This document shows, piece by piece, positions 52,662 to 58,666 of a stretch of 64,000 nucleotides of DNA (positions are counted from its first letter, which is position 1; each line of letters opens with the position of its first letter). Below the pieces are notes generated by a model. That model saw only the letters and a program-made list of their open reading frames with translations. It was not told the origin of the DNA and ran no database searches. The position numbers were made by a program, and so were the translations under genes. Source of the DNA: an uncultured Aquimarina sp. (GTDB taxonomy: Bacteria; Bacteroidota; Bacteroidia; Flavobacteriales; Flavobacteriaceae); contig CANMLW010000014.1 in NCBI GenBank assembly GCA_947498705.1, positions 1-64,000 of the forward strand, given 5' to 3'.

Positions 52662-53306
52662 TTATTTTCCTACAATAATTCTTGCCGCTTGATACCCACT
52701 ATAAAATGAAGTGTGAGTACGCTTAAATCTTTTCATTACTTTATCTACTTTGGTAGCTAACAGAGTAGAGGTTTGGTCAAAAAGCTCTGAAATACTTTTG
52801 GTGGCCTGTTTTTCTGCAATACGATATTGTCTAGGTTGCCCATTGAGTACCAAAAAGCGATCAAAACTATTTTTTAAATCTGTGATTTGATCGGCTGTTA
52901 CGCCGTAATCCTGAAGATCGTTAAGATGTTCTTCTAGCAAAAGGATGGTTTCATTAACAATAATTATAAAATCTTGATTGCGCAATCTGTATAAATCTGA
53001 AAAACTTTTTGCTGCTTTTTGCTCTAGTTCTACTTTATCTTCTACTGCAGCATATGCTTCTAAGGCATCATTTAGTATATCTGCTTTTTCTGAAACAAAT
53101 CGTTTTTGTGTTGTTTTATTTGTTCCTAAGTAGGTTTTAGCAGCTTCCTGACTGTCTTGATTTTCTCTTATTTTTATCAATTGCTCGTCAAATTGATTTT
53201 TGAACGTAACCAATACAGGAACTCCATTCCAAATATCGGTATGGGTATCCATAAAACTTTGTACTGCCTGATACATCTCTAATCTGTTAATTTGTCTTTG
53301 ATCCAT
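52662..53306 (-). CDS. Helical hypothetical protein downstream of 21-bp array
   Basis: A 214-residue cytosolic protein, almost wholly helical and rich in Gln/Glu/Lys. QINRLEMYQAVQSFMDTHTD opens it, SEKADILNDALEAYAAVED lies in the middle, and the C-terminus is basic (KRFKRTHTSFYSGYQAARII). There is no signal peptide. I believe related proteins occur in other Flavobacteria without known function. The four-helix-bundle-like pattern recalls stress or ferritin-like proteins, but no metal-ligand motif is visible. Its upstream region is the striking 11 x 21-bp array, and a strong terminator and the hairpin element lie downstream. Confidence 0.75.
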   Translation of the reverse strand: MDQRQINRLEMYQAVQSFMDTHTDIWNGVPVLVTFKNQFDEQLIKIRENQDSQEAAKTYLGTNKTTQKRFVSEKADILNDALEAYAAVEDKVELEQKAAKSFSDLYRLRNQDFIIIVNETILLLEEHLNDLQDYGVTADQITDLKNSFDRFLVLNGQPRQYRIAEKQATKSISELFDQTSTLLATKVDKVMKRFKRTHTSFYSGYQAARIIVGK

Positions 53307-53329
53307 AAATGTGTGATTTAAAAAATTAA

Positions 53330-53560
53330 TTTGTAATTGCGTAATTTGGCATTGCAGGCTTGCAAATAAAGATTGTATCTATGTAAATGCATATTGCAAT
53401 GTTGTACTTACATATTGTTGTTATGTAACTACTCATTGTATTAATGTCACCACATATTGTTTTGTTACCGGTAGGTATTGTAATAATGTAAATCTATATT
53501 GTTGTTAAGTAACTTCGACTTGTAATAAAGTGATTAGATATTGTATTGATGTAATACTAA
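53330..53560. repeat. 11-copy, exact 21-bp tandem array (iteron-like)
   Basis: 231 bp divide into 11 consecutive 21-bp units at 53330, 53351, 53372, 53393, 53414, 53435, 53456, 53477, 53498, 53519 and 53540. Consensus of the first 15 bases is ATTGTAwTnATGTAA. TTG at positions 2-4 is invariant and the last six bases vary. Units are diverged but the register never slips. Two helical turns per unit would put each site on the same DNA face. The array starts 24 bp upstream of the ATG of the 52662-53306 gene. Stops in all frames exclude coding. Confidence 0.85.
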
Positions 53561-53701
53561 GCTATACCAATTATGACTTAAATTTATCGATTATGATGTC
53601 GAACATAAATGGTACAATACCAAATGAAGCTGTCTAAAAAGACAGCTTCAAGTTATCATAGATTATGCCCCGTATATTCATAACTCTATGTATTGCTTAT
53701 T
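53561..53701. other. Spacer between array and beta-helix gene
   Basis: No gene is present. It contains TATACCAATTATGA near 53573 and the terminator at 53625-53650. The 21-bp periodicity does not continue here. Confidence 0.4.
53625..53650 (-). terminator. Terminator of beta-helix/HYR gene
   Basis: TGAAGCTGTCT (53625-53635) pairs perfectly with AGACAGCTTCA (53640-53650) around a 4-nt loop. On the minus strand a short T-run follows. It lies about 50 nt past the stop at 53702. Confidence 0.72.
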
Positions 53702-56700
53702 TTATCTCCCTTTTATCATAATCTGCTCATATCTTGAGTCTTTAGACAAGAAATACCCTTTTACCCAATACATACCGGGTGGATATTGATCTACAGGGAT
53801 ACGCTGCCCTACAAACTCTTTAGGATAACTTTGTATTTTTCTGCCAGCCATATCATAGATTTCAAAGAAATACATATCCTTTGATCCTATGATTAAGAAA
53901 TGATCTATTGCCGGATTAGGGTAAATTTCAAAAACAAACTCATCTCGCTCTTCTACAATTACTCTTCTTGTTACTTCGGCTCTATTTCCAGAAGGATCGG
54001 TAGCACTATATCGAATGATGTATTCTCCTAATTCACTCTGATATGCTGAGGTATCTATACTAACCGAAGATCCATCGTCTGTGGTAGCTCCTAATTCTGT
54101 ATAAGGGTCTCCCAAAGAAATAATTTGAGGATCATCTCCTACTAATGTAATGACTGGTGGAGTTACATCTACTACAGTAATTATAGTGGTGCAACTACTG
54201 GTATTTCCTCCATGATCAGTGACAGTCAATGTTATCATTTGTTCACCCAGGTCATCGAGTGTGAATAGTTGTCGATCTATTTGCAAACTTGCCAGATTAC
54301 ATTCATCCAAAGATCCCAAATTGATATCCTGAGGAGAAAGTACAGCTGTACCCGTAGCATCCAGAGGTACTGTAAAAGGTGCTACACAATTTGCTACGGG
54401 TGCAATCGTATCTACGATTGTCACGGTAGTCGAACAAGTATTTATATTTCCTGAAATATCGGTAACGGTAAGAGTTACTATATTGCCTCCAATATTAGTA
54501 CAATCAAACGTAGTTTTATCTATACTCGTTGAAGCCACACCACAATTATCAGTACTACCCGCATCGACATCAGAAATAGTAATAACAGCATTGCCAGTAG
54601 CATCTAATGGTAACGTAAATGGTGCTACACAATTCACCATAGGAGCAACATTATCTTCAACGGTTACCATAGCAGTATTAGTATCTGAATTGCCATTAAC
54701 ATCCGTTACCGTTAAGCTTACTGTATTCAATCCTATTTTTGTACAATCAAAACTAGTGATATCTAAACTTACAGATTGAATTCCACAGTTATCAGAAGAA
54801 CCATTATCGATTTGAGCAGCCGTAATACTTGCGTTTCCTGAACCGTCTAATTGAACCGTGATATCTTGAGTAATCACAGTTGGGGCAATTTTATCTTCTA
54901 CCGTTACCGTAGCGGTTTTACTATCTGAATTTCCATTTACATCTGTTACCGTTAGGCTTACTGTATTCGCTCCTATTTTTGTACAATCAAAACTAGTGAT
55001 ATCTAAACTTACAGATTGCACTCCACAATTATCAGAAGAACCATTGTCGATTTGAGCAGCCGTAATGCTTACGTTTCCTGAACCGTCTAATTGAACCGTG
55101 ATATCTTGAGTAATCACAGTTGGAGCAATTTTATCTTCTACCGTTACCGTAGCAGTATTCGTCTCAGAATTACCATTCACATCGATTACAGTTAATGTTA
55201 TTGTGTTCGTTCCAATCTTAGTACAATCAAATGACGTTACATCTAAACTCATCGATTGCACTCCACAATTATCTGTAGAACCATTATCGATTTGAGCAGC
55301 CGTAATGCTTACGTTTCCTGAACCGTCTAATTGAACCGTGATATCTTGAGTAATCACAGTTGGAGCAATTTTATCTTCTACCGTTACCGTAGCAGTTTTA
55401 CTATCTGAATTTCCGTTTACATCCGTTACCGTTAGGCTTACTGTATTCGCTCCTATTTTTGTACAATCAAAACTACTTGTATCTAAACTTATTGATTGGA
55501 TTCCACAGTTATCAGAAGAACCATTATCGATTTGAGCAGCCGTAATACTTGCATTTCCTGAGCCGTCTAATTGAACCGTGATATCTTGAGTAATCACAGT
55601 TGGAGCAATTTTATCTTCTACCGTTACCGTAGCAGTTTTACTATCTGAATTTCCATTTACATCTGTTACCGTTAGGCTTACTGTATTCGCTCCTATTTTT
55701 GTACAATCAAAACTAGTTGTATCTAAACTTACAGATTGCACTCCACAGTTATCAGAAGAACCATTATCGATTTGAGCAGCCGTAATACTTACGTTTCCTG
55801 AACCGTCTAATTGAACCGTGATATCTTGAGTAATCACAGTTGGGGCAATTTTATCTTCTACCGTTACCGTAGCAGTTTTACTATCTGAATTTCCATTTAC
55901 ATCCGTTACCGTTAGGCTTACTGTATTCGCTCCTATTTTTGTACAATCAAAACTACTTGTATCTAAACTTACAGATTGCACTCCACAATTATCAGAAGAA
56001 CCATTGTCGATTTGAGCAGCCGTAATGCTTATGTTTCCTGAACCGTCTAATTGAACCATGATATCTTGAGTAATTACAGTTGGAGCAATTTTATCTTCTA
56101 CAATAACATTAAAAGAGAATGTAGCAGTATCTCCATTAGTATCCATAGCAGTTAAGGTTACAGTATTAGTACCAAAATTAATATTAGTTCCAGCAACTGG
56201 CGTTTGTGTTATGGTAGCTGAACTTATGGTAGGTACATTTGTATAGTCTGCTAATGTAGCTCCACAAAAATTGGCATTGGTACCCACTGTTTGGTCTTCT
56301 ATAAATAATAAGGAATTAATAGTAGTTTCATAAGCTCCAATATCAATAGTGCCATCAGACACTCTGGCATTACCAGCTATATCATTTGTTGATGAATTAA
56401 AGGTGTTATTACCTGCATTAACCAATGGACTTATTGATGCGGGAATTAACCCATCATCAGCAGTTCCTAAAATATTATCAGCTCCATCAGTATCTGCTGA
56501 GTTTACAAAAGGGTCTGCGGTTAGGGTAACGGTTATATTAGGTGCATTTGTTCCATCACTAGCATTGTTATTTCCTGAAGCACTACCAAAGTTATTGAAA
56601 ATATCATTAATACCATTGCTATCAATGTTATTGTAAAATACCGTGTTGTTTATAGTTGGAGAAGATGAATTAATATTAGAGATCCCTCCTCCAGTATCAT

Positions 56701-58666
56701 TTGCAGTATTGTTGTAAAAAGTAACATTATTTAATACTGGAGATGAAGATGAGATGTTTAGCATCCCTCCTCCAAAATTATTTGAAACATTGTTATAAAA
56801 ATTAACATTATTTAATATAGGAGACGAAGAAGAACCGTTAAGCATTCCTCCTCCAGCGTACTCTGCGGTGTTGTTATAAACGTGTATATTATTTAAAATT
56901 GGAGATGAAGTCCAATTGAATATTCCACCCCCTTCAAGATTTGCGATATTGCTAGTAATGGTTATATTAACTAAATTTGGAGAAGAATTATAGTTAGATA
57001 TACCACCTCCAGAAAATCTAAAGCAGCTTCTCCCGCTAAAACTTATACTACTTGTACCATTAGCATTTCCTTCAGTTATTGTAAATCCATCAATAATGGT
57101 AGTAGTGTCTAAATTCGCTGTAACTAAAACGTGATATGTATTGTCGCTATTGTTGCCTGCAGTACCTAAATCACCACTTAAAATGGTTGGATGTCCTATG
57201 GTTCTTTCATTAAGGTTAGTTTCAGTACCTATAAAACCACCATATATTTTTAAATTTTTGTCTAAATGGAAAGCATAATCTCTGGTGTTAGCACTACCGT
57301 TGGGTGCGTTTGTTGGTAAATAGGTTCCTTCGGCTACCCAAATCTCACCATCTTCTGCAATAGCATCAATTGCGTCTTGTAAATTGGTATAAGCATCTGT
57401 CCAACTCGTTCCATCGTTATTTCCTGTAGCGTCTATATCTACATAAAGAAAAGTAGGAGGAGCAAACTCGTAAGCTCCAATATCTATAGTAGTTTGAGAT
57501 ATTCTAGCATTACCAGCTATATCAGTTGTTGTCGAATTGTAGGTATTGTTACCTGCATTAATCAAAGGACTAGTTGACGCAGGAGCTAACCCGTCATCAG
57601 GAGTACCTAAAATATCATCAGCACCATCAATATCTGCTGAGTTGACAAAAGGGTCTGCAGTTAAAGTAACAGTTACACCAGGTGCATTTGTGCCATCACT
57701 GGCATTGTTGTTTCCTGAAGCGGTATTTGTATTAATAACATCGCTAATACCCTTATTGTTAGTGTTGTTATAGAAAACAGTATTATTTAAAGTAACAGTA
57801 GAAGAATAATTACTTATTCCACCTACTCCACGACTATTTGCAGTGTTGTTATAAAAAGTAACATTATTTAATATTGGAGACGAAGAAGAATTGTTTAGCA
57901 TTCCTGCTCCTCCACCATATGTAATATTATTATAAAAGGTAACATTATTTAATATTGGTGATGAAGATAGAAAGTTAGCCATTCCTCCACCTCCCCATAC
58001 ATCTGCAAAAGAAAATGCGGTGTTATTTGTAATGGTTACATTATTTAAAATTGGAGAAGAGGAACCTCTATTATAGATAGCTCCTCCTCCCTTAACTACA
58101 GTATTATTGGAAAAAGTTATATTTTGTATTGTTGGAGAAGAACTTATATTATACATTCCACCACCGAAAAACCCGAAATAAGTGTTACCACTGTAAGTAA
58201 TGTTATTTCCGTCAGCAAATGCTCCAGTTATCGTAAATCCATCAATAATTGTAGAGGTGTCCAAATTAGCTGTAATTAATACATGGTATGCATTATCGGT
58301 AGTATCATTTACAGTACCTAAATCACCACTTAAAATAGTTGGATGTCCTGAGGTCCTCTCGCTTAAGTTAGTTTCAGTACCTGTAAAACCACCATATATT
58401 TTTAAATTTTTATCTAAATGAAAAGAAAAGTTTCTGGTATTAGCACTACCATTGGGAGAGTTTGTTGGTAGATAGGTCCCTTCGGCTACCCAAATTTCGC
58501 CATCCTCAGCAACTGCATCTAAAGCGTCTTGTATATTATTGTAAGCATTTGTCCAACTCGTTCCATCGTTATTACCTGTAGCGTCTATATCTACATAGGT
58601 TTGTGAATATGATAGCTTTGAGAATAGTAAAAAACAAAAAAAAGTAAATAGTAATTTATGTTTCAT
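53702..58666 (-). CDS. Giant beta-helix/HYR surface protein with T9SS type A tail
   Basis: A 1654-residue secreted protein. A signal peptide ends SKLSYSQ. Two tandem parallel-beta-helix (choice-of-anchor type) modules of about 380 residues follow, each opening YVDIDATGNNDGTSWT and DGEIWVAEGTYLPTN, with rungs like SSPILNNVTFYNN. After an HYR-like linker come six near-identical 80-residue modules (EDKIAPTVITQDITVQLDGS ... DCTKIGANTVSLTVTD), two diverged modules, a DUF5011-like Ig domain (ITLVGDDPQIISLGDPYTE) and a T9SS type A sorting domain (FEIYPNPAIDHFLIIGS, PPGMYWVKGYF). It is probably displayed on the surface for adhesion or polysaccharide contact. Confidence 0.93.
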   Translation of the reverse strand: MKHKLLFTFFCFLLFSKLSYSQTYVDIDATGNNDGTSWTNAYNNIQDALDAVAEDGEIWVAEGTYLPTNSPNGSANTRNFSFHLDKNLKIYGGFTGTETNLSERTSGHPTILSGDLGTVNDTTDNAYHVLITANLDTSTIIDGFTITGAFADGNNITYSGNTYFGFFGGGMYNISSSPTIQNITFSNNTVVKGGGAIYNRGSSSPILNNVTITNNTAFSFADVWGGGGMANFLSSSPILNNVTFYNNITYGGGAGMLNNSSSSPILNNVTFYNNTANSRGVGGISNYSSTVTLNNTVFYNNTNNKGISDVINTNTASGNNNASDGTNAPGVTVTLTADPFVNSADIDGADDILGTPDDGLAPASTSPLINAGNNTYNSTTTDIAGNARISQTTIDIGAYEFAPPTFLYVDIDATGNNDGTSWTDAYTNLQDAIDAIAEDGEIWVAEGTYLPTNAPNGSANTRDYAFHLDKNLKIYGGFIGTETNLNERTIGHPTILSGDLGTAGNNSDNTYHVLVTANLDTTTIIDGFTITEGNANGTSSISFSGRSCFRFSGGGISNYNSSPNLVNITITSNIANLEGGGIFNWTSSPILNNIHVYNNTAEYAGGGMLNGSSSSPILNNVNFYNNVSNNFGGGMLNISSSSPVLNNVTFYNNTANDTGGGISNINSSSPTINNTVFYNNIDSNGINDIFNNFGSASGNNNASDGTNAPNITVTLTADPFVNSADTDGADNILGTADDGLIPASISPLVNAGNNTFNSSTNDIAGNARVSDGTIDIGAYETTINSLLFIEDQTVGTNANFCGATLADYTNVPTISSATITQTPVAGTNINFGTNTVTLTAMDTNGDTATFSFNVIVEDKIAPTVITQDIMVQLDGSGNISITAAQIDNGSSDNCGVQSVSLDTSSFDCTKIGANTVSLTVTDVNGNSDSKTATVTVEDKIAPTVITQDITVQLDGSGNVSITAAQIDNGSSDNCGVQSVSLDTTSFDCTKIGANTVSLTVTDVNGNSDSKTATVTVEDKIAPTVITQDITVQLDGSGNASITAAQIDNGSSDNCGIQSISLDTSSFDCTKIGANTVSLTVTDVNGNSDSKTATVTVEDKIAPTVITQDITVQLDGSGNVSITAAQIDNGSTDNCGVQSMSLDVTSFDCTKIGTNTITLTVIDVNGNSETNTATVTVEDKIAPTVITQDITVQLDGSGNVSITAAQIDNGSSDNCGVQSVSLDITSFDCTKIGANTVSLTVTDVNGNSDSKTATVTVEDKIAPTVITQDITVQLDGSGNASITAAQIDNGSSDNCGIQSVSLDITSFDCTKIGLNTVSLTVTDVNGNSDTNTAMVTVEDNVAPMVNCVAPFTLPLDATGNAVITISDVDAGSTDNCGVASTSIDKTTFDCTNIGGNIVTLTVTDISGNINTCSTTVTIVDTIAPVANCVAPFTVPLDATGTAVLSPQDINLGSLDECNLASLQIDRQLFTLDDLGEQMITLTVTDHGGNTSSCTTIITVVDVTPPVITLVGDDPQIISLGDPYTELGATTDDGSSVSIDTSAYQSELGEYIIRYSATDPSGNRAEVTRRVIVEERDEFVFEIYPNPAIDHFLIIGSKDMYFFEIYDMAGRKIQSYPKEFVGQRIPVDQYPPGMYWVKGYFLSKDSRYEQIMIKGR
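54660..56100 (-). repeat. Six near-identical 240-nt coding repeats
   Basis: Exactly 240 nt per unit, with near-identical DNA at the junctions (for example CCGTGATATCTTGAGTAATC near 54855, 55095, 55335, 55575 and 55815). Synonymous positions are also conserved, so the copies arose recently or are kept alike by gene conversion. Each encodes one 80-residue HYR-type module. Confidence 0.92.

Follow-up and report, generated by a model that had tools for sequence, protein, structure and literature searches.

Plasmid iterons are direct repeats of about 18-22 bp that lie at replication origins, with the gene of a possible binder close by. In type II partition (ParMRC) the genes are preceded by the centromere parC, a tandem series of direct repeats whose reported unit measures 10, 11, 17 or 20 bp depending on the plasmid, and ParR binds the parC of its own family and not that of another (PMC9426499). 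The BrickBuilt MITE of Porphyromonas gingivalis is a dispersed tandem array with a 23-nt unit held between inverted-repeat ends (PMC4596501), and marine Beggiatoaceae are reported to have abundant intergenic direct repeats of the motif TAACTGA (PMC4679880).

The array considered here lies in the window (the whole 64-kb stretch of DNA that was analysed) and is made of degenerate 21-bp units upstream of a gene for a small helical protein, which we assign to a family termed F1. The array is real and represents a kind of element that occurs in many Bacteroidota and has apparently not been described; no description of such arrays was found in the open-access literature. Our favoured reading, to which we give a probability of a little under one half, is that the array is a set of helix-phased protein-binding sites owned by the adjacent gene, and that the F protein, or a factor co-inherited with it, recognises the unit of its own array.

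The window array and its locus

A sequence-only reading of the window had claimed that the array divides exactly into eleven units of 21 bp with an invariant TTG. This is borne out: TTG occupies unit positions 2-4 in 11/11 units, and G at position 12 (10/11), T at 13 (9/11) and A at 15 (9/11) are conserved as well. The mean unit-to-unit identity of 0.565 compares with 0.304 ± 0.013 in 1000 dinucleotide shuffles and lies about 20 s.d. over them; since the best shuffle reached only 0.351, the shuffling check that the same reading had named as a possible refutation of its 21-bp autocorrelation leaves the array standing. The signal rises above background at periods 21 and 42 only, the 40 stretches of 231 bp that score best in the window all begin within 53278-53395, and in a uniform scan of periods 12-60 bp this is the sole non-coding array of the window. 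The scan places the strong part of the array at 53351-53560; the unit nearest the gene (53330-53350) is weaker, yet in register with the rest, and 23 bases separate the array from the ATG. Tandem Repeats Finder returns fragments only (53327-53355, period 15; 53410-53460, period 21) because the units have diverged. Inverted repeats between 53300 and 53640 are short and imperfect and none frames the array, and no second array with the window motif was seen in the window's own genome. The large surface-type protein gene upstream, which contains six repeats of 240 bp that are 90% alike (54642-56101), probably does not belong to the element.

Table 1. Features of the window locus
Feature	Position	Strand	Basis
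Array of 11 degenerate 21-bp units	53330..53560	(-), taken from the downstream F1 gene	Period and shuffles
F1 gene, 214-aa protein, predicted all-helical	52662..53306	(-)	AlphaFold2, pLDDT 85, pTM 0.52
GTAACA motif within the array, possible promoter element	53463..53468	(-)	Motif recurrence in Aquimarina F1 loci
Terminator-like hairpin with T-rich tail, between surface-protein gene and array	53625..53650	(-)	1 found versus 0.1 ± 0.3 in shuffles
Large repeat-containing surface-type protein gene, upstream neighbour	53702..58666	(-)	Repeat content

The F proteins and their linkage to arrays

HMMs of F1 and of two further families, F2 and F3, cross-match, which joins them into one Bacteroidota superfamily: 25 open frames (some of them one gene in overlapping loci) are matched by all three, and the F3 HMM matches the window protein at 1.1e-6. 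Family membership is here defined by HMMs built in this analysis, partly from the tested loci, and F1 against F2 alone gives a weak hhalign match (probability 30, E 5e-4, 98 columns). A candidate fourth family, F4, encoded in genome G506 (L197 and L280; 26% identity, E 7e-10) and likewise downstream of arrays, possibly belongs to the same superfamily. The F2 model is all-helical (pLDDT 87, pTM 0.57), there is no strand in either the F1 or the F2 model, and the pI of 17 F proteins ranges from 4.7 to 9.4, with 6.0 for the window protein. The superfamily F1-F3 has no convincing known relative. The window protein matches nothing in Pfam, NCBIfam or PHROGs at E ≤ 0.01, the Pfam matches at E 0.013-0.056 all being under the cut-off; NCBIfam and PHROGs were searched with F1 only, and 1 or 2 of 19 F1 members give weak NCBIfam matches (best E 6.4e-4). 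Foldseek found nothing at E ≤ 0.001 for F1 and F2 against the PDB or for F1 against viral models, PDB sequence searches with F1 and F2 gave nothing convincing (best E 0.0057), and Pfam held no match for two F2 proteins and no convincing one for the F3 protein searched. No known DNA-binding fold was recognised in the F proteins. Some F2 and F3 proteins carry C-terminal domains that look FN3-like by eye, with no FN3 match in Pfam for L188, L193, L166 or L182, and the 318-aa F1 members (L159 1177-2130 and L180) have an extra C-terminal region, beta-rich by eye, with no Pfam match for L159.

The linkage of arrays to these genes was tallied with one scorer for all (periods 12-40, 700 bp upstream, duplicates removed), leaving out proteins with identical last 150 residues and genes with less than 350 bp or more than 150 N upstream. 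Among the 81 distinct family genes with locus DNA, 64 have an upstream array as judged against a detection threshold (F1 32/40, F2 13/16, F3 19/25), and the best period is 21 in 64/64; leaving out the window, L139 and L140, which were found via their arrays, the count becomes 61/78. Control genes in 80 random 20-kb stretches bear a period-21 array in 6 of 1043 cases (5/402 in G506, 1/641 elsewhere) and an array of another period in 11. The claim that a register kept during sequence drift reflects selection on spacing is supported by the constant period of the family-linked arrays. The proposed check on orthologues without 21-bp periodicity went mostly against refutation: most family genes have the array upstream, and 17/81 have none by the same scorer, among them the F1 entries L163 and L164, which are partial genes. 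Two of the 81 have a 21-bp array downstream. In A. longa the array lies on the downstream side of F1, some 330 bp away (L007, a locus with the gene that L044 also represents), and at L010 and L016 it falls under the detection threshold (scores 6.8 and 8.6), so that the uniform tally counts it as absent there. The DNA upstream of F1 genes keeps 21-bp registers in which unit sequences drift and then change wholly as the protein diverges. A phylum search yielded 16 near-full-length F1 loci, 14 of them with an upstream 21-bp array, including the G+C-rich L160, and none was found at L154 and L162. At L139 and L140, where the arrays were found by pattern, an F2 gene is next to them, and in a separate count 17/23 F3 loci had an upstream array.

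Several other observations were made around these loci. Genes for TssD (Hcp) of the type VI secretion system lie close to a 21-bp array in G019 and next to F1 in G010 (L099 4613-5011, L144 4768-5163, L136 3130-3606), and G019 also has a PAAR gene close to a solo array; a general link to type VI secretion was rejected, TssD being near some arrays (L099, L144) and not generally. In the Aquimarina loci L106, L142 and L143, the neighbourhood of F1 includes genes for large secreted proteins that fall into shared families, two clusters in all. Control stretches contain non-coding arrays with a 14-bp period (L223 11998-12105, L226 10322-10427, L292 3526-3795), and two non-coding arrays with a 50-bp period occur in G506 (L286 1086-1262 and 2939-3309).

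The spread of the F genes is patchy. With one genome per species in each set, the named relatives that carry orthologues of the window F1 are Aquimarina, where 18/52 genomes have an F1 match, fragments counted, and 15 a near-full-length copy, one of which (G049) contains an internal stop. F1 occurs in 2/299 family-level genomes, the window's own and one of a different genus (L049), which has the upstream array too. Across the phylum F1 was found in 25/395 genomes at E ≤ 0.1 and, at the stricter E ≤ 0.001, in 19, of which some are F3-type, F2 in 8/345, and F3 in 11/326, often in multiple copies; G500, G370 and G604 are multi-copy genomes. Broken or partial F1 copies were noted in G019 (C7:308538-308991 and C11:36708-37255) and also in G001, G022, G037, G041 and G023. 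Such fragments and interrupted copies in several Aquimarina genomes suggest frequent gain and loss of F1. Patchiness, multiple copies, decayed genes and dispersed solo arrays with a genome-specific shared unit would all suit a small mobile or selfish cassette, in which the array provides the recognition sites for movement or maintenance. Against such a cassette, which we regard as improbable, no gene family, and hence none of transposases or recombinases, is seen beside the gene at more than 3 of 34 F loci (clustered open frames of at least 80 aa, a cut that small or fast-evolving partners could escape), and neither plasmid matches with an F1 query nor phage matches with an F3 query were found. 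The only recurring partner found for F genes is the array.

Helical phase, constraint and unit sequence

Across 66 arrays comprising 742 units, 675 of 676 spacings are exactly 21, a count favoured by the 21-bp scorer with which the arrays were delimited; the arrays used have 6-31 units. The variability between units is itself periodic along the unit: its 10.5-bp component has a relative power of 0.254, versus 0.099 ± 0.012 in column-permuted arrays and 0.104 in a simulation of neutral duplication, and is the largest harmonic in 30/52 arrays. These 52 arrays are 13 F1 arrays of Aquimarina, 16 of the F1 group from outside that genus (the F3-type L166 among them), 11 F2 arrays and 12 solo arrays, after arrays of fewer than six units had been dropped and near-identical Aquimarina arrays thinned to 13. 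Adding 15 F3 arrays brings the power to 0.236, with 10.5 bp leading in 35/67 arrays, and the F3 arrays alone give 0.172. One face of the helix thus keeps its bases, the other has more freedom to vary, and this one-face conservation favours contact with duplex DNA. It is direct support for one-sided docking, and with it for the earlier suggestion of phased protein-binding sites two helical turns apart. A search of 67 arrays for palindromic or direct half-sites gave no average signal, three of them (L248, L255, L264) exceeding z 2 for inversion.

One-face conservation at the same time disfavours coding. A unit of 21 bp is divisible by three and could encode, in seven codons, one repeat of a heptad-repeat protein; many arrays do have one or more open frames. 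This idea is refuted here by six-frame translation and by codon-phase and Fourier tests: codon-phased variation shows in 0/52 arrays at p < 0.05, the 3-bp power of 0.059 is, narrowly, the lowest of ten harmonics (next 0.060), and the frame leading into the window gene is broken by four stops within the strong part. With 10.5-bp rather than 3-bp variation, the array resembles a one-sided docking surface on DNA and not a coding sequence, and the view of the sequence-only reading that it is non-coding holds, the six frames of its strong part having 1 to 9 stops each. There are other 21-bp-periodic stretches in these genomes: one at G000:C1:1146072-1146188, with similar ones in nine other Aquimarina genomes, is conserved and contains TACAAAGTACCAATGAAGAA and variants, and looks like a coding heptad repeat, and as such a false positive of the array pattern, and in G002 a control pattern, read in reverse, gave 74 matches on a single strand, pointing to another long 21-bp-periodic stretch.

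A period of 2 x 10.5 bp that is kept while the sequence runs free is also what intrinsically curved DNA would produce, where a repeat every two turns adds up bends in phase and selection acts on the period alone. We consider this quite improbable, because the predicted curvature of 67 arrays (wedge model) is not above that of column-permuted arrays (mean percentile 0.486, KS p 0.69) and the AT content of unit columns has no 10.5-bp peak. Alternatively, the array could be transcribed and work as a repeated RNA element, as its place upstream of the start codon in most family genes might suggest. This is very unlikely: the phasing is 10.5 bp rather than about 11 bp, and the only Rfam match in the window region (53200-53760) is snR57 at E 0.1, under its gathering score. 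The promoter candidate GTAACA argues in the same direction. It occurs in 9/21 F1 loci listed when 320 bp upstream are searched, lies 92-145 bp upstream of the ATG in eight Aquimarina F1 loci other than the window, and in 7/9 Aquimarina loci with the motif is situated between array and gene.

Comparison between species indicates constraint. In five of seven species pairs, not all independent as four pairs share loci, the array diverges less than the flanking DNA (L003/L006, 0.162 vs 0.447; L005/L006, 0.053 vs 0.107; L043/L006, 0.230 vs 0.364; L003/L043, 0.210 vs 0.388; L012/L014, 0.040 vs 0.083), with flank values that are inflated because flanks align worse than arrays; in two it diverges more (L013/L015, 0.297 vs 0.232; L014/L016, 0.527 vs 0.480). 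Relative to third codon positions, divergence of the array is lower in four pairs (L003/L006, L005/L006, L003/L043, L012/L014) and higher in three (L013/L015, L014/L016, L043/L006). These data bear on the proposal that the arrays are functionless minisatellites, made and homogenised by slippage or unequal exchange and copied around the genome. In favour of this are a 42-bp higher-order alternation in 29/67 arrays, the gain or loss of a whole unit between L003 and L043, some arrays with almost no variation among units (L042 and L157, for example), the two pairs in which the array outpaces its flank, and identical stretches longer than a shared unit profile predicts in 3 of 13 array pairs (L007/L136, L184/L201, L280/L277; shared profiles suffice for the other ten). 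A functionless origin is nonetheless unlikely, as it leaves unexplained the invariable period and the linkage to one superfamily, the 10.5-bp peak that neutral tandem simulation fails to generate, the lower divergence than flanks in the majority of pairs, and unit columns 14-16, which are unchanged in four comparisons among L003, L005, L006 and L043 and in L012/L014, though changed in L014/L016.

When units of different arrays are compared against column-permuted nulls, their sequences are seen to be replaced from genus to genus and, in many cases, from one paralogue to the next within a genome, and DNA similarity searches with the array are for this reason uninformative. In G500 the likeness among seven F3 and two F2 arrays is at chance level (mean z 0.14, 0/36 pairs above 3), and paralogue arrays are alike in 3/10 pairs of G370 and 1/6 pairs of G592. 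Within single Aquimarina genomes, where the solo arrays were found with one TACA/AA pattern for all genomes, family-linked and solo arrays are alike (mean z 5.8, 19/21 pairs above 3, the exceptions being the F1 pair of G024 with z 1.3 and, as the difference implies, one G017 pair), more so than between Aquimarina genomes (mean z 2.2, 255 pairs). Solo arrays without a family gene are found in G506 and G019; 6 of 9 arrays in 600 kb of G506 have neither an F1-F3 gene nor a possible F4 gene beside them. The family-linked arrays of G506 differ from one another, and three of its six solo arrays match three different family-linked ones (F4 L280 with L277, F2 L184 with L201, F1 L160 with L202; z 7.0, 4.9 and 3.8), 3/78 pairs reaching p < 0.01 where about 0.8 are expected. 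Since L184/L201 and L280/L277 hold over-long identical stretches, two of these three matches may be copies, and copying is a serious alternative account of their shared motifs. Non-coding 21-bp arrays were found neither in the 400 kb scanned from three Aquimarina genomes that lack an F1 match nor in random stretches of the F1-bearing G020, G604, G592, G019 and G000, and F1-less and F1-bearing genomes are therefore not separated by arrays.

The unit sequences bear on who reads the array. It could be a phased surface for a general factor, a nucleoid protein or another chromosomal regulator, with F as a regulated passenger, and the missing DNA-binding domain of F, the solo arrays of G506 and G019 and the unit common to the arrays of one Aquimarina genome are compatible with this unlikely arrangement. 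However, one sequence-reading factor could hardly serve all arrays, given the absence of a shared motif in G500 and the solo arrays of G506 that match different linked ones, and a factor blind to sequence would have no need for array-specific conservation on one face.

Under the favoured reading of sites owned by the adjacent gene, one binding site per 21 bp, or two turns, would bring all sites onto the same face of B-DNA, and each F protein, or a factor inherited with it, would read the unit sequence of its own array. We infer that the array is bound by protein, with F itself as the binder, and cooperatively; in-register binding along the units would order DNA and protein into a regular nucleoprotein structure in front of the gene. 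The probable outcome is autoregulation of that gene, and solo arrays with the same unit elsewhere in the genome would allow action in trans as well. A cooperative operator or a chromosome-organising site, as the sequence-only reading proposed, is at this stage a possible role. A wider proposal can be put forward tentatively: the F proteins may form a new class of DNA-binding proteins across Bacteroidota that read sequence and build arrays. In this class an orphan helical protein and its own 21-bp-phased address, placed before its gene and at times repeated elsewhere in the genome, would change together at a constant two-turn pitch. The pitch would then be fixed by the geometry of a protein polymer, and the sequence freed by co-evolution that separates paralogues. 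If each protein does recognise its own array, these loci would be naturally occurring pairs of a protein and its cognate DNA, fixed in geometry, from which to learn how DNA specificity can evolve while a nucleoprotein lattice stays intact; they might also hold a new DNA-recognition fold. The array is also a first testable handle on orphan helical proteins that have no family name in the libraries searched.

Comparison with known systems

A spacing that is kept without its sequence is invisible to homology searches, and an element class spread over a phylum could therefore escape notice. The Beggiatoaceae repeats have a fixed 7-bp motif, whereas the F arrays have a fixed period and a free sequence. 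BrickBuilt is similar in being a dispersed tandem array in a Bacteroidota genome; it is one named element of one species, in contrast to the gene-linked 21-bp arrays with their free sequence and, for the window array, without framing inverted repeats. Plasmid iterons differ in other respects: no Rep-type Pfam match was found for the scanned F1, F2 and F3 proteins, several arrays occur per genome, F1 has no plasmid match, and the window array sits on a contig of at least 64 kb. ParMRC differs in that convincing ribbon-helix-helix (ParR-like) matches were found neither in F1 (Pfam, NCBIfam, PHROG and PDB sequences) nor in F2 (Pfam and PDB sequences), both being predicted as all-helical, in that no ParM-like family (actin- or tubulin-like motor) recurs among the clustered neighbours of F genes, and in that the F arrays are long and keep period 21 across a phylum. 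The element is not filed under ParMRC because the searches turned up neither a fold like that of ParR nor a motor gene that recurs as neighbour. For binding restricted to the cognate array, as ParR shows it, the motif comparisons give indirect support. Like parC, the array is a run of direct repeats upstream of a gene, here at 64/81 F genes, and ParR on parC is the closest working analogue.
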